DNA of 47,618 bases from Muribaculaceae bacterium (GTDB lineage Bacteria > Bacteroidota > Bacteroidia > Bacteroidales > Muribaculaceae), in the NCBI GenBank assembly GCA_022509065.1, contig JAFLTY010000017.1, positions 1 to 47,618 on the forward strand, read 5' to 3'. The notes below the pieces were generated by a model, which saw only the letters and a program-made list of their open reading frames with translations, ran no database searches and was not told the origin of the DNA. The position numbers were made by a program, and so were the translations under genes. How positions within the stretch are numbered: the first letter of the stretch is position 1; each line of letters starts with the position of its first letter. Below are positions 39,154 through 47,611 of this stretch, in pieces.

Positions 39154-40572
39154 TTAACAACCGGTGCATGCGCCACATTGTTCGTCTGCGCCCGAAAGTC
39201 GTCGTTCAACAAGATGGCGGAGGCGGTCACGCAACTGTTCGGGATTCACCTTCTCCAAGACATCGGCCATAAAAGCGTTCATCAGCATTGAACGCGCCTC
39301 GGGCAGGTCAATGCCGCGCGACCTCATGTAGAAAAGCGCATTCTCGTCAAGTTGACCGGTGGCCGAACCATGACTGCACTTAACATCGTCGCAATATATC
39401 TCAAGTTGAGGCTGGCTGTGCATGACAGCATCAGCTCCCCCGATGATATTACGGTTGCTCTGATAGGCCGAGGTGCCTATCGCACCTTCAGCCACTCGTA
39501 TAAGGCCGTGGAAAGCGCCTTTGGCGGCATCGTTGACCAGATATTTGAACGCCTGGTCGCTATGGCAGTGTTCGCTGTTGTGAAGCACCGTCGTACAGTT
39601 GTCGGCTATACGGTTACCGTCAAGAATAGCCATGCCGTTTAGGTCGACGCTCGCACCGGGACGGTTCAGATTTACCGTAAAGTCATTGCGCGTGCGCGAT
39701 GGTTTCAACGAGCCGGCAAACACCGACAACCGGCTGTTGTCATTCTGCCGGGCAAATGTCATCACATGGCGCGACGTTCCGGCTGACGACTCCTCGAGTT
39801 CACACAGATTAAGACTGGAGTCGGTGTCAAGGTATATCTCGGTCACTCGCAACGATGCCGAGGGAGTGTCTTGTGACATATCATGGTCGCACACCATGAG
39901 GTCAAGATTAGCTCCGCGTTCAAGAACCACGAGGAGACGTCTGACTGCAAGCGCAGGCAACGCCGTTCCATCGGGTGCGGTCATATTGCGAAGTATATTT
40001 ATGAGCTGAATAGGTTTGTCTACCTTAACCCCTGCCGAGACATGGACAAGGACACCGTCCTGTGCCAAAGCTGTGTTAAGTGCAAGAGCGGCGTTGTCAT
40101 TTATATTGCCTGCCGCCTTGCCATAGTGACGGCGTATGACTTCTTCGTCCGCGGACGAGGCTTTAGAGAAAGCTGTCACTGTCACTCCCTCGGGCAACAA
40201 CCGCACCAAACGGTCGGTGGGATGAAAAGTGTCGTTGACCGTCACTCCTATGAGGGATGACAAAGCGGGGACACCGCACCGGAAAAGAGACTGAGCCTCG
40301 GTGGTTATCGGCAACCTGTTGATATTCACCCCTAAATCGGGAGCAAACATAACATTCAGGTCGGCGTAATGGTTCTCGGCCTTATCAGTGTCACAAAGAC
40401 TAAGGTTGCTGTTGGCCAGAAGTTCGGTGGCCGCTTCGTGCCGCACCCCCGCAATGGAGCGCGCCGTATGTTGAGCCACGACGGCACCATACTGGGCAAG
40501 CAAGACGCGGTATTGTGTTAACGCATCGGCACATCGCCCTTGAGCTGATTTTTTTGAAGCGTTAGTTTCCAT
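39154..40572 (-). CDS. sufD: Fe-S cluster assembly scaffold protein SufD
   Basis: SufD partners SufB and SufC in the scaffold complex that builds Fe-S clusters. The 472-aa protein has the beta-helix core with VHVSAGVKVDKPIQL and ends with the UPF0051 motif HSQPQLEIYCDDVKCSHGSATG and YMRSRGIDLPEARSML. The extreme C-terminus carries a Cys-x-x-Cys-x-x-Cys tail (C466, C469, C472), which could hold a metal or sulfur. It overlaps sufC by 11 bp, indicating translational coupling. Confidence 0.95.
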   Translation of the reverse strand: METNASKKSAQGRCADALTQYRVLLAQYGAVVAQHTARSIAGVRHEAATELLANSNLSLCDTDKAENHYADLNVMFAPDLGVNINRLPITTEAQSLFRCGVPALSSLIGVTVNDTFHPTDRLVRLLPEGVTVTAFSKASSADEEVIRRHYGKAAGNINDNAALALNTALAQDGVLVHVSAGVKVDKPIQLINILRNMTAPDGTALPALAVRRLLVVLERGANLDLMVCDHDMSQDTPSASLRVTEIYLDTDSSLNLCELEESSAGTSRHVMTFARQNDNSRLSVFAGSLKPSRTRNDFTVNLNRPGASVDLNGMAILDGNRIADNCTTVLHNSEHCHSDQAFKYLVNDAAKGAFHGLIRVAEGAIGTSAYQSNRNIIGGADAVMHSQPQLEIYCDDVKCSHGSATGQLDENALFYMRSRGIDLPEARSMLMNAFMADVLEKVNPEQLRDRLRHLVERRLSGADEQCGACTGC

Positions 40573-41335
40573 CGACCTGCTCTTTTATCCAGTCGTACCC
40601 TTTTTCTTCGAGCTCCAACGCCAGTTCCGGGCCACCGGTGTGGACTATGCGTCCTTTGTACAGGATATGCACCACATCGGGTTTTATATAGTCAAGCAAA
40701 CGTTGATAGTGGGTAATGACTATGGTAGCGTTTTTATCCGTTTTCAGTTTGTTGACGCCGCCGGCCACAATACGAAGCGCGTCGATATCAAGACCTGAGT
40801 CTGTCTCATCGAGGATGGCGAGACGTGGCTGAAGCACAGCCATCTGAAAAATCTCGTTGCGTTTTTTCTCGCCACCCGAGAATCCTTCGTTCACCGAACG
40901 CGAGGCAAGTTTGTTATCAAGTTCGACAAGAGCACGCTTCTGACGCATGAGCTTAAGGAAGTCGGAAGCGCTCATGGGTTCCTCGCCAAGATACTTACGT
41001 TTGGCATTGACTGCGGCGCGCATAAAATTGACCATGGACACCCCGGGAATCTCGACCGGATACTGGAAAGATAAAAAGAGCCCTTCGTGACTGCGGTCTT
41101 CAGGCGATAGCGACAGTAGTTCCTTGCCGTTGAACAAAGCCGAACCCCCGTTTACAGTAAACCGCGGGTCGCCGGCCAAAACTCCCGACAATGTACTTTT
41201 GCCCGAACCGTTGGGTCCCATGATGGCATGAACCTCGCCTTCGCGCACCGTTAGATTGATACCTTTCAATATCTCCTTGCCTTCTATGCCTGCGCGCAAG
41301 TCGTTTACTTGAAGCAATATATTGTTTTGTGACAT
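40562..41335 (-). CDS. sufC: Fe-S assembly ATPase SufC
   Basis: SufC is a soluble ABC-type ATPase that drives the SufBCD scaffold. The 257-aa protein has Walker A GPNGSGKST (40-48), the signature FSGGEKKRNE (152-161), Walker B LAILDETDS (172-180) and the switch histidine in IVITHYQRLLDYI. Length is normal. It lies between sufB (90-bp gap) and sufD (11-bp overlap). Confidence 0.97.
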   Translation of the reverse strand: MSQNNILLQVNDLRAGIEGKEILKGINLTVREGEVHAIMGPNGSGKSTLSGVLAGDPRFTVNGGSALFNGKELLSLSPEDRSHEGLFLSFQYPVEIPGVSMVNFMRAAVNAKRKYLGEEPMSASDFLKLMRQKRALVELDNKLASRSVNEGFSGGEKKRNEIFQMAVLQPRLAILDETDSGLDIDALRIVAGGVNKLKTDKNATIVITHYQRLLDYIKPDVVHILYKGRIVHTGGPELALELEEKGYDWIKEQVDGN

Positions 41336-41425
41336 TAAACTTTTAATTTTTTAGTTCTCAATTTTTCAGTTAACAAGGCGTTTATCGCACCATAGCAGTC
41401 ACCCATGTGTCTTGGCTGAGAGCTT

Positions 41426-42922
41426 TTAACCCACCGAGCCTTCAAGAGTGATAGACAAGAGTTTCTGCGCTTCGACAGCAAACTCCATGGGAAGTTTGTT
41501 CATGACCTCCTTGGCATATCCGTTCACTATCAGACCGACGGCCTCTTCGGTAGGTATACCGCGTTGATTGCAGTAAAAAAGTTGTTCTTCGCTGATTTTT
41601 GACGTGGTGGCTTCATGCTCGACTATGGCCGAGTCGTTGCGTACATCGATATACGGGAAAGTATGCGCTCCGCAGTGCGACCCCAGCAACAACGAGTCGC
41701 ATTGCGTATAGTTACGCACCCCGACAGCATTTCTGGCCACGCGTACCAGACCGCGGTATGCGTTTTGCGAATAACCGGCACTGATGCCTTTGGACACTAT
41801 GGTCGAACGCGAATTTTTTCCGATATGTATCATCTTTGTTCCGGTGTCAGCCTGCTGCCGGTTGTTGGTAACTGCCACTGAGTAGAATTCGCCTACCGAA
41901 CCTTCGCCTGACAGTATGCACGAAGGATATTTCCAGGTAATGGCCGAGCCGGTCTCCACCTGAGTCCACGAGAGTTTCGAATAATCTCCGCGGCACAGTC
42001 CGCGTTTGGTCACAAAGTTATATATGCCGCCGCGCCCTTCTTTATCGCCGGCATACCAGTTCTGCACGGTGGAGTATTTCACCTCGGCGTTGTCTTCCAC
42101 AATGATTTCGACGATGGCGGCGTGCAGTTGGTTTTCGTCGCGCATCGGAGCTGTGCATCCTTCCAGATAACTGACATAAGCCTCGCTGTCGGCCACAATA
42201 AGTGTTCGCTCAAATTGGCCTGTTCCGGCAGCGTTGATGCGAAAATATGTTGACAGTTCCATGGGACAACGTACACCCTTTGGGATGTAGACGAACGAGC
42301 CGTCGCTGAATACCGCAGAATTGAGAGCTGCGTAGAAATTATCGGTGTAGGGCACTACCTTGCCGAGGTATTTCCGTACAAGGTCGGGATAATCCTTAAC
42401 CGCCTCGGAAAACGAACAGAAAATGATACCCAACTCAGCCAGTTTTTCGCGATGGGTGGTTTTTACGGATACGGAATCCATTACGGCGTCGACCGCCATA
42501 CCGGCAAGGGCTTTCTGCTCGTGGAGAGGTATGCCAAGCCGATTGAATGTGTCAATCAATTGCGGGTCTACCTCATCAATATTCTTAGGGGAGGTCTTCG
42601 ATTTGGGAGCGGCGTAATAGCTTAGACTTTGAAAATCTATGTCGGGAATGTCGAGATGCGCCCACCGAGGCGGTGTCAGTGTCTGCCAGTAACGGAAGGC
42701 GTCAAGCCGGAAATTAAGCAGCCACTCGGGCTCGCCTTTTTTTGCCGATATAAGCCTTATGACATCCTCATTCAGGCCGATTGGAATGATTTCAGTGTCT
42801 ATATCGCTGACAAAACCATATTTATAGTCGCCCGAGACACTTTCGTCAATTATGTTCCTGGCTGTATTAGGCTCCGCAGCGGGACAACCCTGATTTGGTG
42901 CTATATCTTCGTTATGTTCCAT
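41426..42922 (-). CDS. sufB: Fe-S cluster assembly scaffold protein SufB
   Basis: SufB is the main scaffold subunit on which new Fe-S clusters form. The 498-aa protein has [40 protein letters not shown] (a conserved cysteine) and the C-terminal [22 protein letters not shown]. An N-terminal extension of about 30 residues ([15 protein letters not shown]) is not conserved. It is the first gene of sufBCDS and lies 62 bp after cvpA; no separate promoter is visible there. Confidence 0.97.
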
Positions 42923-43786: not shown

Positions 43787-46429
43787 TTAGTCCAGTGTGC
43801 GCGATACGGAGTTTTTCGTCACTTTGATTTTGAAGCCTTTGTAGTCGGGAGAAACCCTGCGTCCATTAATGTCATAAACCACAGCGTCCGCATCGTCGTC
43901 ATCTTTAAGAATATCTCCCACGCCGTCTTCCGAGAAGAACTCACACCATTGAGGTGCCTCAGCATAAAGTCTGATGCTTTCCTGTGGGACGGTGAGTCGG
44001 CAGTTGGTTTTGTCAAAGTCGGCGAATGTCGTTTCGTCGGCAGTCGGAGGAACGGTTTGTGTCAGCTCTATCTCCTCGACACAATTCAACTGTGCCAACA
44101 TGTAATTACCCACCGAATCAAGACCGCCGGTGAACGTTATTTTCTTCAAATCTTTCGCTCCTGTAAAGGGCGAGTAATAGTTTTTCGACACACCCATATT
44201 GGCATACGAGCCACTTCTATACGATATGTTGCGACCTACTGTGATGGATGTCAGGGGCATGCGAGAGAACATGCCGTCGTGTAAAGACACCCCACTCATC
44301 ACATCGGAGTGAGTGTCTATATCGTTCGACATCGAATGGATCACCCACGAACCGTTGGGGTCGAAGTTATCGCCAAATTTCAACTCGTTATCTGAGTCGG
44401 CTATCGTAAGCGATGTTATGGCGGTATTGGCAAAGGCATCCCACCCTATTTTCTCGACAGCCGAACCTATGTACAATTCGCCGGTGATGTTCGCACAATC
44501 CTTGAATGCCTCGTCACCTATCTCCGTAAGAGATTCAGGCAGAATGAGCTCGTCGGTGAAATCACAACCTTTGAACGCTTTTTCCCCGATGGTCTGAAGG
44601 CTTGCGGGCAATTCGAGTTTGCCGGTCAGTTTTGAGCATGCCGCAAAGGCGTTCTTGCCTATCGTCAGCAAATGTTCGGGGAAAATAACATATTCCAAAT
44701 CCAGCCCGTTAAACGCTTCATCGGCTATGGTTTCAATCTTGTTTCCTTCCTCAAACTCCAATCCGGTGACTGACCCGTCAGTGCTACTGAAAAGGGCGCG
44801 GTCTATCATCGAAACATTTTTGGCAAAGACCACCGGTCCGGCCATGGTAAAATCGAATCTGTTAAAATCGTTGGTCGAAATGTCTTTTGCGATGACCAGA
44901 CGGGTCACAGTGACATCGCCAAGACAGGCGCTTTCTATTTTAGTCAGCGATTCTGGTATCGTCACCTCGGCCACTATTGAGGCATTGCCTCCGTAAATAG
45001 CCTGGCGCTCTAACGTTGTCAACGACGGTGGGAAGTTGAGCGACTCGAATGTGATGTTTCCACCCACAAAAGCTTTTTCTTTGATGATTTGCAGCGATGT
45101 CGCTCCGTCTATATTGAAGTGATAGGGAACCATGCCGTAAATAAAATGGCTGGGAATGGTTTTCACGGAGGGTCCGATTATTACCTCGGTTTGCGTATAT
45201 GCGCTGCCGTCCGAACTATAATCATCAAATAAGGGGTTCGCCGGTTCGGGAACATCAAGGTATATCGATTTCAGGTTGTAACATCCGTGAAATACGTTAG
45301 TTCCCATTGTCTCCACATTGTTGCCCACGTAAGCCGATGTCAGACCGGTGCAATTGGCAAACGCTTCACCTCCAAGGATTTTTACAGATTCGGGAATGAG
45401 TACATCGCCGTTAATACCCGGGTTGTTTGCGAACACCCCGTGCTGGATGGTATGCAACGAACAGTCTTCGCTGAATGTCAACGATTTCAGCTGACAACTG
45501 TTGAAAAGTTGACTCGTAATAATTTCTGCATCCTTCCCGATTACAAGGTCAAAACCCGGTGCGGTAGTCGTTTCTCTTTCACTATTATATGAATAGTCGA
45601 AAATGGGCGAATGATAACTGGAGGTTGTTTTAATCTCCGGGGTTCGTGCATTCCAAACAACCTTCTCTAACGCCGAAGCCTTACAAAAAGCCTCATAGCC
45701 TACCCAAAGAACCGACGACGGCACGTATATTTCGGTAAAAGCGTTTCCGTAGAACGCATATCGTCCAATATAAGATACTGTTTCGGGTAAGTCCAGCACA
45801 CCGGCTATAGCGTTGTTATTAAAGCAATTGTCACCGATATACTCGCATTTGCTGTCATCATCGAAATGAAGGTTCGTGATACCGATGCTTTCAAAAAGTC
45901 CGTCGCCTATACGGGTCAGGTTCGGGCCTATGAAGATATCGGTAGACTCGGCTTCCGACCCGCACTCATAAAACGGGTATTGGTTTTTGCCACGGCGTGT
46001 CGAATTTGTCTTCGCGAAAGCAAAATCGGAATTCAGAGTAAGACTCTCCACTCTCTTACAGTTAAGAAAAGCGTCAGGGCCTATGGAATCGAGCGTCGCC
46101 GGCAACACAACGCCGCTAAGTTTGTCGCACGCCGAAAAAGCTTTTTCACCAATCACCCTTACATTTTCGGGAACGGTAAGAACACCCGTTATTTTGGCTG
46201 AGGCAAAAGCGTTGGCGTCGATTTCCACCACCTTATAAGTCTGGTTGTTATGACTGACTGTGGAAGGAAGCGAGACTTCGGTATCCGCTTCAAGGGAATG
46301 TCCCGATATGGCCACGGTACCCTCGGTAGAACTGATTATTCGGTATGTTATGCCGTTTGTTTCAAATGTCGATTGAGCGCTTAGACACAACGGAAACAGC
46401 GAGAAGATGAGTAGAGATAGTTTTTTCAT
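43787..46429 (-). CDS. BspA-type leucine-rich-repeat surface protein
   Basis: This 880-aa secreted protein has a signal peptide (MKKLSLLIFSLFPLCLSAQS). More than 20 LRR_5 (BspA/TpLRR) units of the type L-x-x-I-G-x-x-A-F-x-x-C-x-x-L run from about residue 75 to 800 (for example VRVIGEKAFSACDKLSGVVL and LQTIGEKAFKGCDFTDELIL). A C-terminal tail (VVYDINGRRVSPDYKGFKIKV) follows. BspA proteins of oral and gut Bacteroidales mediate binding to host matrix or other bacteria; the ligand here is unknown. The gene has its own promoter. Confidence 0.92.
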   Translation of the reverse strand: MKKLSLLIFSLFPLCLSAQSTFETNGITYRIISSTEGTVAISGHSLEADTEVSLPSTVSHNNQTYKVVEIDANAFASAKITGVLTVPENVRVIGEKAFSACDKLSGVVLPATLDSIGPDAFLNCKRVESLTLNSDFAFAKTNSTRRGKNQYPFYECGSEAESTDIFIGPNLTRIGDGLFESIGITNLHFDDDSKCEYIGDNCFNNNAIAGVLDLPETVSYIGRYAFYGNAFTEIYVPSSVLWVGYEAFCKASALEKVVWNARTPEIKTTSSYHSPIFDYSYNSERETTTAPGFDLVIGKDAEIITSQLFNSCQLKSLTFSEDCSLHTIQHGVFANNPGINGDVLIPESVKILGGEAFANCTGLTSAYVGNNVETMGTNVFHGCYNLKSIYLDVPEPANPLFDDYSSDGSAYTQTEVIIGPSVKTIPSHFIYGMVPYHFNIDGATSLQIIKEKAFVGGNITFESLNFPPSLTTLERQAIYGGNASIVAEVTIPESLTKIESACLGDVTVTRLVIAKDISTNDFNRFDFTMAGPVVFAKNVSMIDRALFSSTDGSVTGLEFEEGNKIETIADEAFNGLDLEYVIFPEHLLTIGKNAFAACSKLTGKLELPASLQTIGEKAFKGCDFTDELILPESLTEIGDEAFKDCANITGELYIGSAVEKIGWDAFANTAITSLTIADSDNELKFGDNFDPNGSWVIHSMSNDIDTHSDVMSGVSLHDGMFSRMPLTSITVGRNISYRSGSYANMGVSKNYYSPFTGAKDLKKITFTGGLDSVGNYMLAQLNCVEEIELTQTVPPTADETTFADFDKTNCRLTVPQESIRLYAEAPQWCEFFSEDGVGDILKDDDDADAVVYDINGRRVSPDYKGFKIKVTKNSVSRTLD

Positions 46430-46761: not shown

Positions 46762-47457
46762 CTATATATTCAAGTTGTTGATTTTATTGCAAATTTGAGT
46801 TACATGATTAAGTCCATAAAGATATTTATATGCGTCAACTCCGAGCCAAGAGAACAAGGTAAATATTTTGTTATAGATGAACTGGATGTATGTCGTGGAT
46901 ATAGTAGCAAAACCGGTAGGAAAGCAAATCGGCTCATGATGCGCTATTCTGTTCCGTAATGAATTTACATGATCTAACTCATTAAATATATATGTGTTAT
47001 TATATTGTATTTGACGAGTAGAAGTAGGCTTATCGGGAAATACACTTAACAGGATTCTATTAGTCGCTCTAAACTGAGGACTTGAAAACATATATTTCCA
47101 AATGCCGAACTCCATTTTAGAAAGCAAATGAGTATGGGTATAGTTGTTTTGTCTAACTAATTTATCATAGGCAGACCTTATTATTCTTGCATGATCACGG
47201 CATTGAGAAATATCAAATATACCTCCAGGAAGAATTGCATCACGAAGCCAATCATTACCAAAATGTGATGTCATTACTTTGTCAATGGAATTGCGTAACG
47301 CAACTTCAAAAGCACCGACAACAGCAAACATTTCAAGAGATGCAGCAATATTATAACGGTATAAAAGAGTTGATTTAGCCTTATCGAGGTTACAAGCTAT
47401 TAAATACCTATGCATTCTGTCAGGAGAAACTATGTTTTCTAAGTCGTTGAATTTCAT
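46762..47457 (-). CDS. Abi-family HEPN protein (AbiF/AbiD-like)
   Basis: This 231-aa protein resembles the Abi_2 family of abortive-infection proteins, predicted RNases of the HEPN superfamily that can stop growth upon phage infection. The HEPN signature is an Rx4H motif in SLRNRIAHHEP (R168, H173). The helical pattern LEMFAVVGAFEVALRNSIDK and the segment LLSKMEFGIWKYMFSS are typical of the family. It is shorter than classical AbiD/AbiF (about 300-350 aa). The gene is strongly AT-rich, suggesting recent acquisition. Upstream, on the opposite strand, lies a structured small RNA (47541-47590) that may be its antitoxin. The assignment rests on motifs; the toxin activity is inferred. Confidence 0.8.
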   Translation of the reverse strand: MKFNDLENIVSPDRMHRYLIACNLDKAKSTLLYRYNIAASLEMFAVVGAFEVALRNSIDKVMTSHFGNDWLRDAILPGGIFDISQCRDHARIIRSAYDKLVRQNNYTHTHLLSKMEFGIWKYMFSSPQFRATNRILLSVFPDKPTSTRQIQYNNTYIFNELDHVNSLRNRIAHHEPICFPTGFATISTTYIQFIYNKIFTLFSWLGVDAYKYLYGLNHVTQICNKINNLNI

Positions 47458-47503
47458 TCACGAAATAAATTTTCCAAATTTTTGCAATAAAATTATTAAG
47501 AAA

Positions 47504-47535
47504 TTTGTTTTAATAAAAGAAAAGCACTAATTTTG
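47504..47535 (+). promoter_or_regulatory. Promoter of the small RNA by abi
   Basis: TTTG (47504-47507), an exact 20-bp spacer and TAATTTTG (47528-47535) match the Bacteroidota consensus fully. It points right, away from abi, and the first transcribed base should be near 47540, right at the start of the structured element. Confidence 0.75.
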
Positions 47536-47540
47536 TGGTG

Positions 47541-47590
47541 TTGATCCCCGGTAGCCCCTGTATATCAAGCTATCGGGTTTTGTTTTGTAT
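47541..47590 (+). ncRNA. Pseudoknot-like small RNA, candidate antitoxin of abi
   Basis: In the predicted transcript two helices interleave: TTGAT (47541-47545) with ATCAA (47564-47568), and CCCGGTAGC (47547-47555) with GCTATCGGG (47569-47577). The second helix has one G-T pair, which would be an A-C mismatch if the minus strand were transcribed, so the plus strand is favoured. TTTTGTTTTGT follows, giving a terminator-like end. No ORF fits in it. Interleaved stems are typical of RNA antitoxins, and conserved RNAs are known near abiF genes; whether this one is homologous cannot be judged here. Because the loops between helices are 1, 8 and 0 nt, both full helices may not coexist, so it could instead switch between them. 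Confidence 0.6.
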
Positions 47591-47591
47591 T

Positions 47592-47611
47592 GCAAAATTA
47601 AGAAATTTTGC
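47592..47611. repeat. 8-bp inverted repeat beyond the small RNA
   Basis: GCAAAATT (47592-47599) is matched by AATTTTGC (47604-47611). On the minus strand TAATTTTG (47600-47593) is also a -7 consensus pointing toward abi, so this may be an operator over an abi promoter; its -33 would lie outside the window. Confidence 0.4.

Follow-up and report, generated by a model that had tools for sequence, protein, structure and literature searches.

Type III toxin-antitoxin systems, namely ToxIN and its relatives, couple a toxin of the ToxN fold with an antitoxin produced from an RNA repeat array. The AbiF systems are characterized by proteins with the Abi_2/HEPN fold and an RNxxxH motif, together with a short structured RNA adjoining the gene (abiF RNA, Rfam RF03085). 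According to the respective papers, AbiFCd of C. difficile is toxic and is bound and neutralised in trans by the RCd22 RNA, with R202 and H207 being needed (PMC12373285); PbAbiF, the partner of AbiFr (PDB 8VZ6), binds one non-coding RNA per monomer, and Cas13 has been proposed to descend from AbiF (PMC12737573); the abortive-infection defence protein PD-T4-5 is a distant relative of AbiF/D (PMC9519451). Here we describe a related locus from a Muribaculaceae bacterium (contig JAFLTY010000017.1 of assembly GCA_022509065.1), all 47,618 nucleotides of which constitute the window analysed: an abi open reading frame (ORF) and a divergent small RNA gene, both lying within its last 860 bases. As far as searched, the locus is an undescribed and widespread variant of the AbiF/abiF-RNA type, and we consider it likely, by analogy with those systems, that it forms a two-part toxin-antitoxin pair of a short AbiF-type HEPN RNase and a neutralising hairpin RNA.

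The Abi_2/HEPN fold and RNxxxH motif are common to the window protein, AbiF, AbiFCd and PbAbiF, and in the window family too a short structured RNA adjoins the gene; by eye, its RNA also shares with the RF03085 consensus an outer stem leading into a GC-CUC-U core. The proteins, however, are of ~230 aa as against ~300 aa in AbiF, and the RNA is usually divergent, whereas at five of eight RF03085 loci inspected by tblastn the RF03085 match is closely followed, in line, by an AbiF-like gene (one locus has a fragment only, two no match). The window-family RNA folds into a continuous 9-bp stem with an apical hairpin; RF03085 has a 3' bulge and an 11-nt loop. As in ToxIN, the predicted components are an RNase toxin and a small RNA antitoxin, but here with an HEPN/Abi_2 toxin and usually one hairpin per locus instead of the ToxN fold and a repeat array. 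PD-T4-5, a plasmid-borne E. coli protein, is what the window protein matches best in PADLOC (E 6.2e-13); its profile has 309 positions, and an RNA partner is unmentioned in the accessible part of PMC9519451. CRISPR-Cas13, for which a common origin via AbiF has been proposed (PMC12737573), likewise unites an RNase of the HEPN type and a short hairpin RNA, whereas neither a spacer array nor variable sequence of guide length was seen in the window family: the window genome has a single R1 element, and tandem copies in relatives lack spacers. The window-family RNA is unmentioned in the accessible portions of the AbiF literature (PMC12373285, PMC12737573, PMC9519451); Zilberzwige-Tal et al. may list it in their paper on AbiF and Cas13.

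The Abi_2/HEPN protein and its adjoining RNA gene

The window protein is an AbiF-type HEPN protein. Its 231-aa ORF occupies 46762..47457 on the minus strand, and both the R-N-R-I-A-H sequence and the kinship to AbiF claimed in the original prediction, made from the letters of the window, hold up. Pfam Abi_2 matches it at 26.6 bits, above the gathering score of 25.6, and it conforms to the AbiF fold; among 59 aligned sequences, 55 match Abi_2 at E 0.01 and all 59 match the PD-T4-5 profile. R168, N169 and H173 of the HEPN RNxxxH motif (R168-N-R-I-A-H173, codons at 46939..46956, minus strand) are invariant across these 59, and R[NHD]xxxH is found in 83 of 84 unique group A proteins. The protein is predicted to be an RNase toxin.

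On the opposite strand the small RNA has a promoter of its own, comprising a -33-type TTTG box (47504-47507) and, after a 20-nt gap, a -7-type box TAATTTTG (47528-47535), the TAnnTTTG form of which we take to be the Bacteroidota promoter type. The RNA itself, of ~45-50 nt (47541..47589, plus strand), is placed by this promoter at its start and by a U-rich tail (47578-47587) at its end, the tail and the stem together likely forming an intrinsic terminator; about 85 nt separate the abi start codon from the predicted RNA start in the head-to-head arrangement that is usual in the family. Its outer stem is formed by CCCGGTAGC (47547-47555) pairing with GCTATCGGG (47569-47577). Between the arms lie the 3-nt side of an asymmetric internal loop (47556..47558; CCC in the window and, for the most part, CUC or CCC among relatives) and an apical hairpin, UG-UAUAU-CA (47559..47567), which has only 2 bp in the window's clade and 3-4 covarying bp elsewhere. 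The covariance model R1 matches at 47533-47589, the single R1 element of the window genome. Stability of the hairpin is not convincing in itself: 9 of 2000 dinucleotide shuffles fold equally well or better (z -3.4), but equally stable sequences are common in the window, with 1763 of its 19028 50-mers folding at least as stably as the element.

The stronger evidence is comparative. Pattern extraction yielded 68 distinct elements, one contig-edge element having been dropped. TAnnTTTG is in position in 64 of the 68, as against ~2% of mononucleotide shuffles, and is accompanied by a TTG near -33 in 62. The nested structure pairs in 99.6% of alignment cells; both helices covary, six of 13 pairs being changed on both sides, and none of 500 shuffles reaches any of these measures. 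Double changes also occur in seven of 12 pairs among 28 more diverse elements, in an alignment that was fitted to the model and leans towards it. A G.U pair is retained in 65 of the 68 rows, which agrees with the plus-strand transcription earlier deduced from a G-T pair. The apical stem varies in step (TGAC/GTCA, TGAG/CTCA, TGAA/TTCA, TGGA/TCCA, TGTC/GACA), and several of its loops are, by eye, GNRA-like or UUCG. The fold that is conserved is nested, a hairpin whose internal loop is 3x1 and whose apical stem covaries. The original prediction was right as to coordinates and promoter, and compensatory stem changes, whose absence among homologues would have spoken against it, do exist; the small RNA gene beside the abi gene is confirmed, with its conservation as the real evidence. 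The prediction had also envisaged two interleaved helices, and this part was not confirmed. The second helix, TTGA/TCAA, shows no double change and its G-C pair is broken in 18 of 68 elements, so that a pseudoknot is rejected as a conserved feature. Where the apical stem has 2-3 bp the pairing is feasible in 47 of 53 elements, and where it has 4 bp in three of 14 (leaving out the misaligned L109), although ancestry confounds this pattern; in the window's own clade, with its apical stem of only 2 bp, the pairing is possible.

Distribution, layouts and distant relatives

Relatives of the gene-RNA pair are widespread and occur in many gut bacteria. Among 397 sampled genomes of the window's family, the protein has matches in 87 (E 0.001, fragments and distant matches included) and R1 has 148 in 113, with one or two copies in nearly all of these and a maximum of four. 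The RNA lies within 2 kb of 53 of the 55 full-length proteins whose identity is 45% or more; the two proteins without it, apparently L070 and L089, start 6 and 8 nt from the contig start. At 33-36% identity it is present for 10 of 13 proteins, the R1 misses being L202, whose element scores 35.4 bits when searched directly, L201, which has only ~108 nt upstream on its contig, and G136:C35. Below 33% identity R1 finds none at nine full-length proteins. A further, named set, consisting of the best 80 of 88 loci from a contig search and overlapping the 397-genome set, contains many Muribaculaceae or other Bacteroidales; the element is present in 76 of the 80, and L070, L078 and L089 are cut off upstream. 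In both sets homologues rarely lack the element, so that another outcome which would have spoken against the original prediction did not occur. No relative was found in viral contigs and only four weak ones in a phage collection; the close family shows no sign of phage carriage in these two collections.

The layout of the pair varies. The RNA is divergent upstream at 63 of the 80 named loci, downstream on the same strand at six (L081, L096, L099, L104, L107, L110), convergent downstream at six (L076, L085, L086, L091, L094, L097) and upstream on the same strand at one, L092, the only one with the in-line upstream arrangement of RCd22 and abiFCd; L069 and L090 have a divergent upstream RNA plus a second copy downstream. 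Since sequence and fold are kept while place and strand change, the element is best read as a trans-acting RNA gene. Tandem RNA copies without spacers occur in L026, L029 (the second copy degenerate), L107 (7 nt apart by model coordinates) and L177, where RNAs of two different classes, a group B-like one and then a group A one, stand back to back.

Proteins with 20-30% identity have different hairpins, mostly divergent. One class, CCCGG-TAATTCCTCTCC-CCWG...CWGG-TGATGAAT-CCGGG, comprises 16 distinct sequences and by eye is also found in L217-L222, which are all six of the group C loci fetched from the window's family. Beside distant Abi_2 genes at L120-L131, L133 and L217-L222 there is thus a hairpin family other than that of the window, with the core TTCCTCTCC; it is usually divergent, the abi start codon being near the RNA promoter, and the loci tested gave no Rfam abiF match. 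In most group C loci the abi start codon is close to the RNA's own promoter; the group C hairpins of L124 and L126 are in line with the gene. Others resemble CTTGGTAAAGCCTCT...AACCAAG (L117, L227, L248), and hairpins extend beyond Bacteroidota (Neisseria L240, Sphingobium L244 and Rhodococcus L247 by scan, Enterobacter L241 by eye). A CCUCU or CCCUG core is common to these distant hairpins and also appears in the RF03085 consensus, as AGCCUCU. Such a core motif, picked after viewing those loci and hence scored post hoc, is found on the divergent strand at 27 of 39 loci versus three on the same strand, three in the gene body and 3.4 in shuffles, and with a stricter stem at 18 versus one, one and 2.3. 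Two of the three same-strand matches are the real in-line hairpins of L124 and L126; the divergent match of L250 looks like chance, and the scan missed hairpins visible by eye at L241 and L242. No clear hairpin was found at L118, L245, L246, L249 and L251, and an Rfam search of 18 distant Abi_2 loci gave no abiF RNA at E up to 0.5.

Some further features were observed near these genes. A Chryseobacterium plasmid (L236) has two neighbouring Abi genes (158-1063 and 1501-2181), the longer, of ~300 aa, accompanied by an in-line hairpin seen by eye, the shorter by the divergent RNA. A fluoride riboswitch (L119:1046-1115) and a group II intron end (L131:1248-1323) lie near other Abi_2 genes. In the window, the abi gene adjoins an 880-aa protein of repeated motifs (43787-46429, minus strand) that resembles a leucine-rich surface protein, and ORFs at 39154-42922 resemble Suf iron-sulphur assembly proteins.

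The probable toxin-antitoxin pair weighed against other explanations

The reading of the locus as a toxin-antitoxin pair is founded on the fold and motif of the protein, the promoter of the RNA, its covarying structure, the near-obligate pairing in several layouts and the persistence of the RNA without the toxin. From this comparative evidence we infer that the RNA neutralises the HEPN protein; toxicity, RNA binding, neutralisation, trigger and a role in defence are proposed by analogy with AbiF-RCd22 and PbAbiF-AbiFr. In the mechanism envisaged, the ~230-aa toxin would act as a dimer, with R168 and H173 at the shared active site, and the ~50-nt hairpin RNA, which has a separate promoter on the opposite strand, would bind the dimer and render it inactive. 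The folded RNA thus probably keeps the toxin switched off; should its production drop upon phage takeover or loss of the locus, the freed toxin would cleave cellular RNA and growth would stop.

Several observations weigh against the toxin-antitoxin reading. The window RNA matches no Rfam family, and RF03085 in particular neither at the gathering score nor at E up to 10. At L106 the miss is genuine: the homologue is intact, and a search of ~3 kb flanks gave no RNA. Of the 148 RNAs, 73 have no protein match nearby and may have other partners, and with all 148 considered the RNA is within 1 kb of 12 of the 150 KilA-N places listed. The elements of L092 and L202 likewise lack an RF03085 match at E up to 10, and membership in RF03085 is rejected for want of a covariance model match. 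The distinct subtype foreseen in the original prediction stands with respect to the short protein, the divergent layout and an RNA outside RF03085, but not the pseudoknotted helix connections.

The RNAs without a toxin, a number that draft assemblies could inflate, were followed in 58 fetched loci holding 59 of the 73. A profile search recognised a toxin remnant only in L196 (36 aa) and L159 (20 aa); of 46 loci with at least 760 nt on both sides, eight are near a KilA-N gene or fragment and 38 have neither. The -7 box is kept less often here (39 of 55 scored, a set including the toxin-linked RNA of L202), so some of these RNAs are decaying. An intact toxin gene is almost never alone and the RNA often is: this asymmetry is what a toxin-antitoxin pair predicts, and suggests that the RNA is the antitoxin. 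Orphan RNAs in L173 and L182 lie 9-11 nt from a 91-aa gene, in L173 (1717-1989) a YafQ-type toxin by Pfam, that of L182 being 74% identical.

The orphans, together with the proximity to KilA-N genes, could also indicate a general host small RNA, or one whose main partner is another gene such as KilA-N, its place beside abi being secondary. The RNA does stand beside KilA-N genes or fragments at L148, L149, L151, L158, L176, L181, L186, L187, L190 and L191, and in L186 three KilA-N copies, one broken, alternate with two RNAs. However, 138 of the 150 KilA-N places listed lack it, while abi genes almost never do, the RNAs are degraded in L187, L190 and L191, and similar hairpins accompany many distant Abi_2 genes. 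KilA-N is rejected as a regular partner, 12 of the 150 listed places being within 1 kb of an RNA, and we regard the wider explanation as improbable; 14 KilA-N loci chosen for having no RNA near showed no other upstream hairpin by eye. An RNA that does not bind the protein, its divergent transcription merely interfering in cis with the abi promoter, would suit the usual head-to-head layout with its ~85 nt and the closeness of most group C start codons to the RNA's promoter. Yet interference has no need of a conserved hairpin core, and sequence and fold persist downstream in both orientations, upstream on the same strand and in lone RNAs, which makes purely cis-acting regulation distinctly improbable.

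The proposed ancestry of Cas13 in AbiF (PMC12737573) raises the further idea that the HEPN protein finds target transcripts through the RNA as a guide. A short conserved leader before the stem and a short conserved U-rich tail after it leave no variable guide stretch, and the tandem copies of L026 have no spacer and those of L107 only 7 nt between them; with no variable stretch, a guide is rejected as very improbable. A hairpin acting at the DNA level, as a terminator or recombination site without RNA function, would be in keeping with the terminator-like stem and T-run and with the orphan copies; it is hard to reconcile with a promoter in place in 64 of 68 elements, the retained G.U pair (65 of the 68 rows), compensatory changes, GNRA- and UUCG-like loops seen by eye and the one or two copies, at most four, in nearly all 113 matching genomes. 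We reject this explanation also, as the least credible of those considered.

Returning to the toxin-antitoxin pair, a broader scheme may be entertained, which we consider doubtful: every branch of short Abi_2 HEPN toxins would have its own divergent antitoxin RNA on a single plan of outer stem, GC-CYC-U and apical hairpin; solitary and tandem copies, including the two-class tandem of L177, would be retained as antidotes to toxins that arrive from outside and form an RNA-based anti-addiction memory growing by tandem addition; and some would have been recruited by unrelated KilA-N proteins. Cas13 is proposed to have started from AbiF-type HEPN proteins that have RNA antitoxins, and the window family is a minimal version of these, with ~230 aa and ~50 nt; as far as searched, its RNA is absent from Rfam. 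With a movable RNA gene and many solitary copies, the family would allow direct tests of how toxin and RNA remain matched and of whether RNA antitoxins on their own shield cells from incoming toxins.
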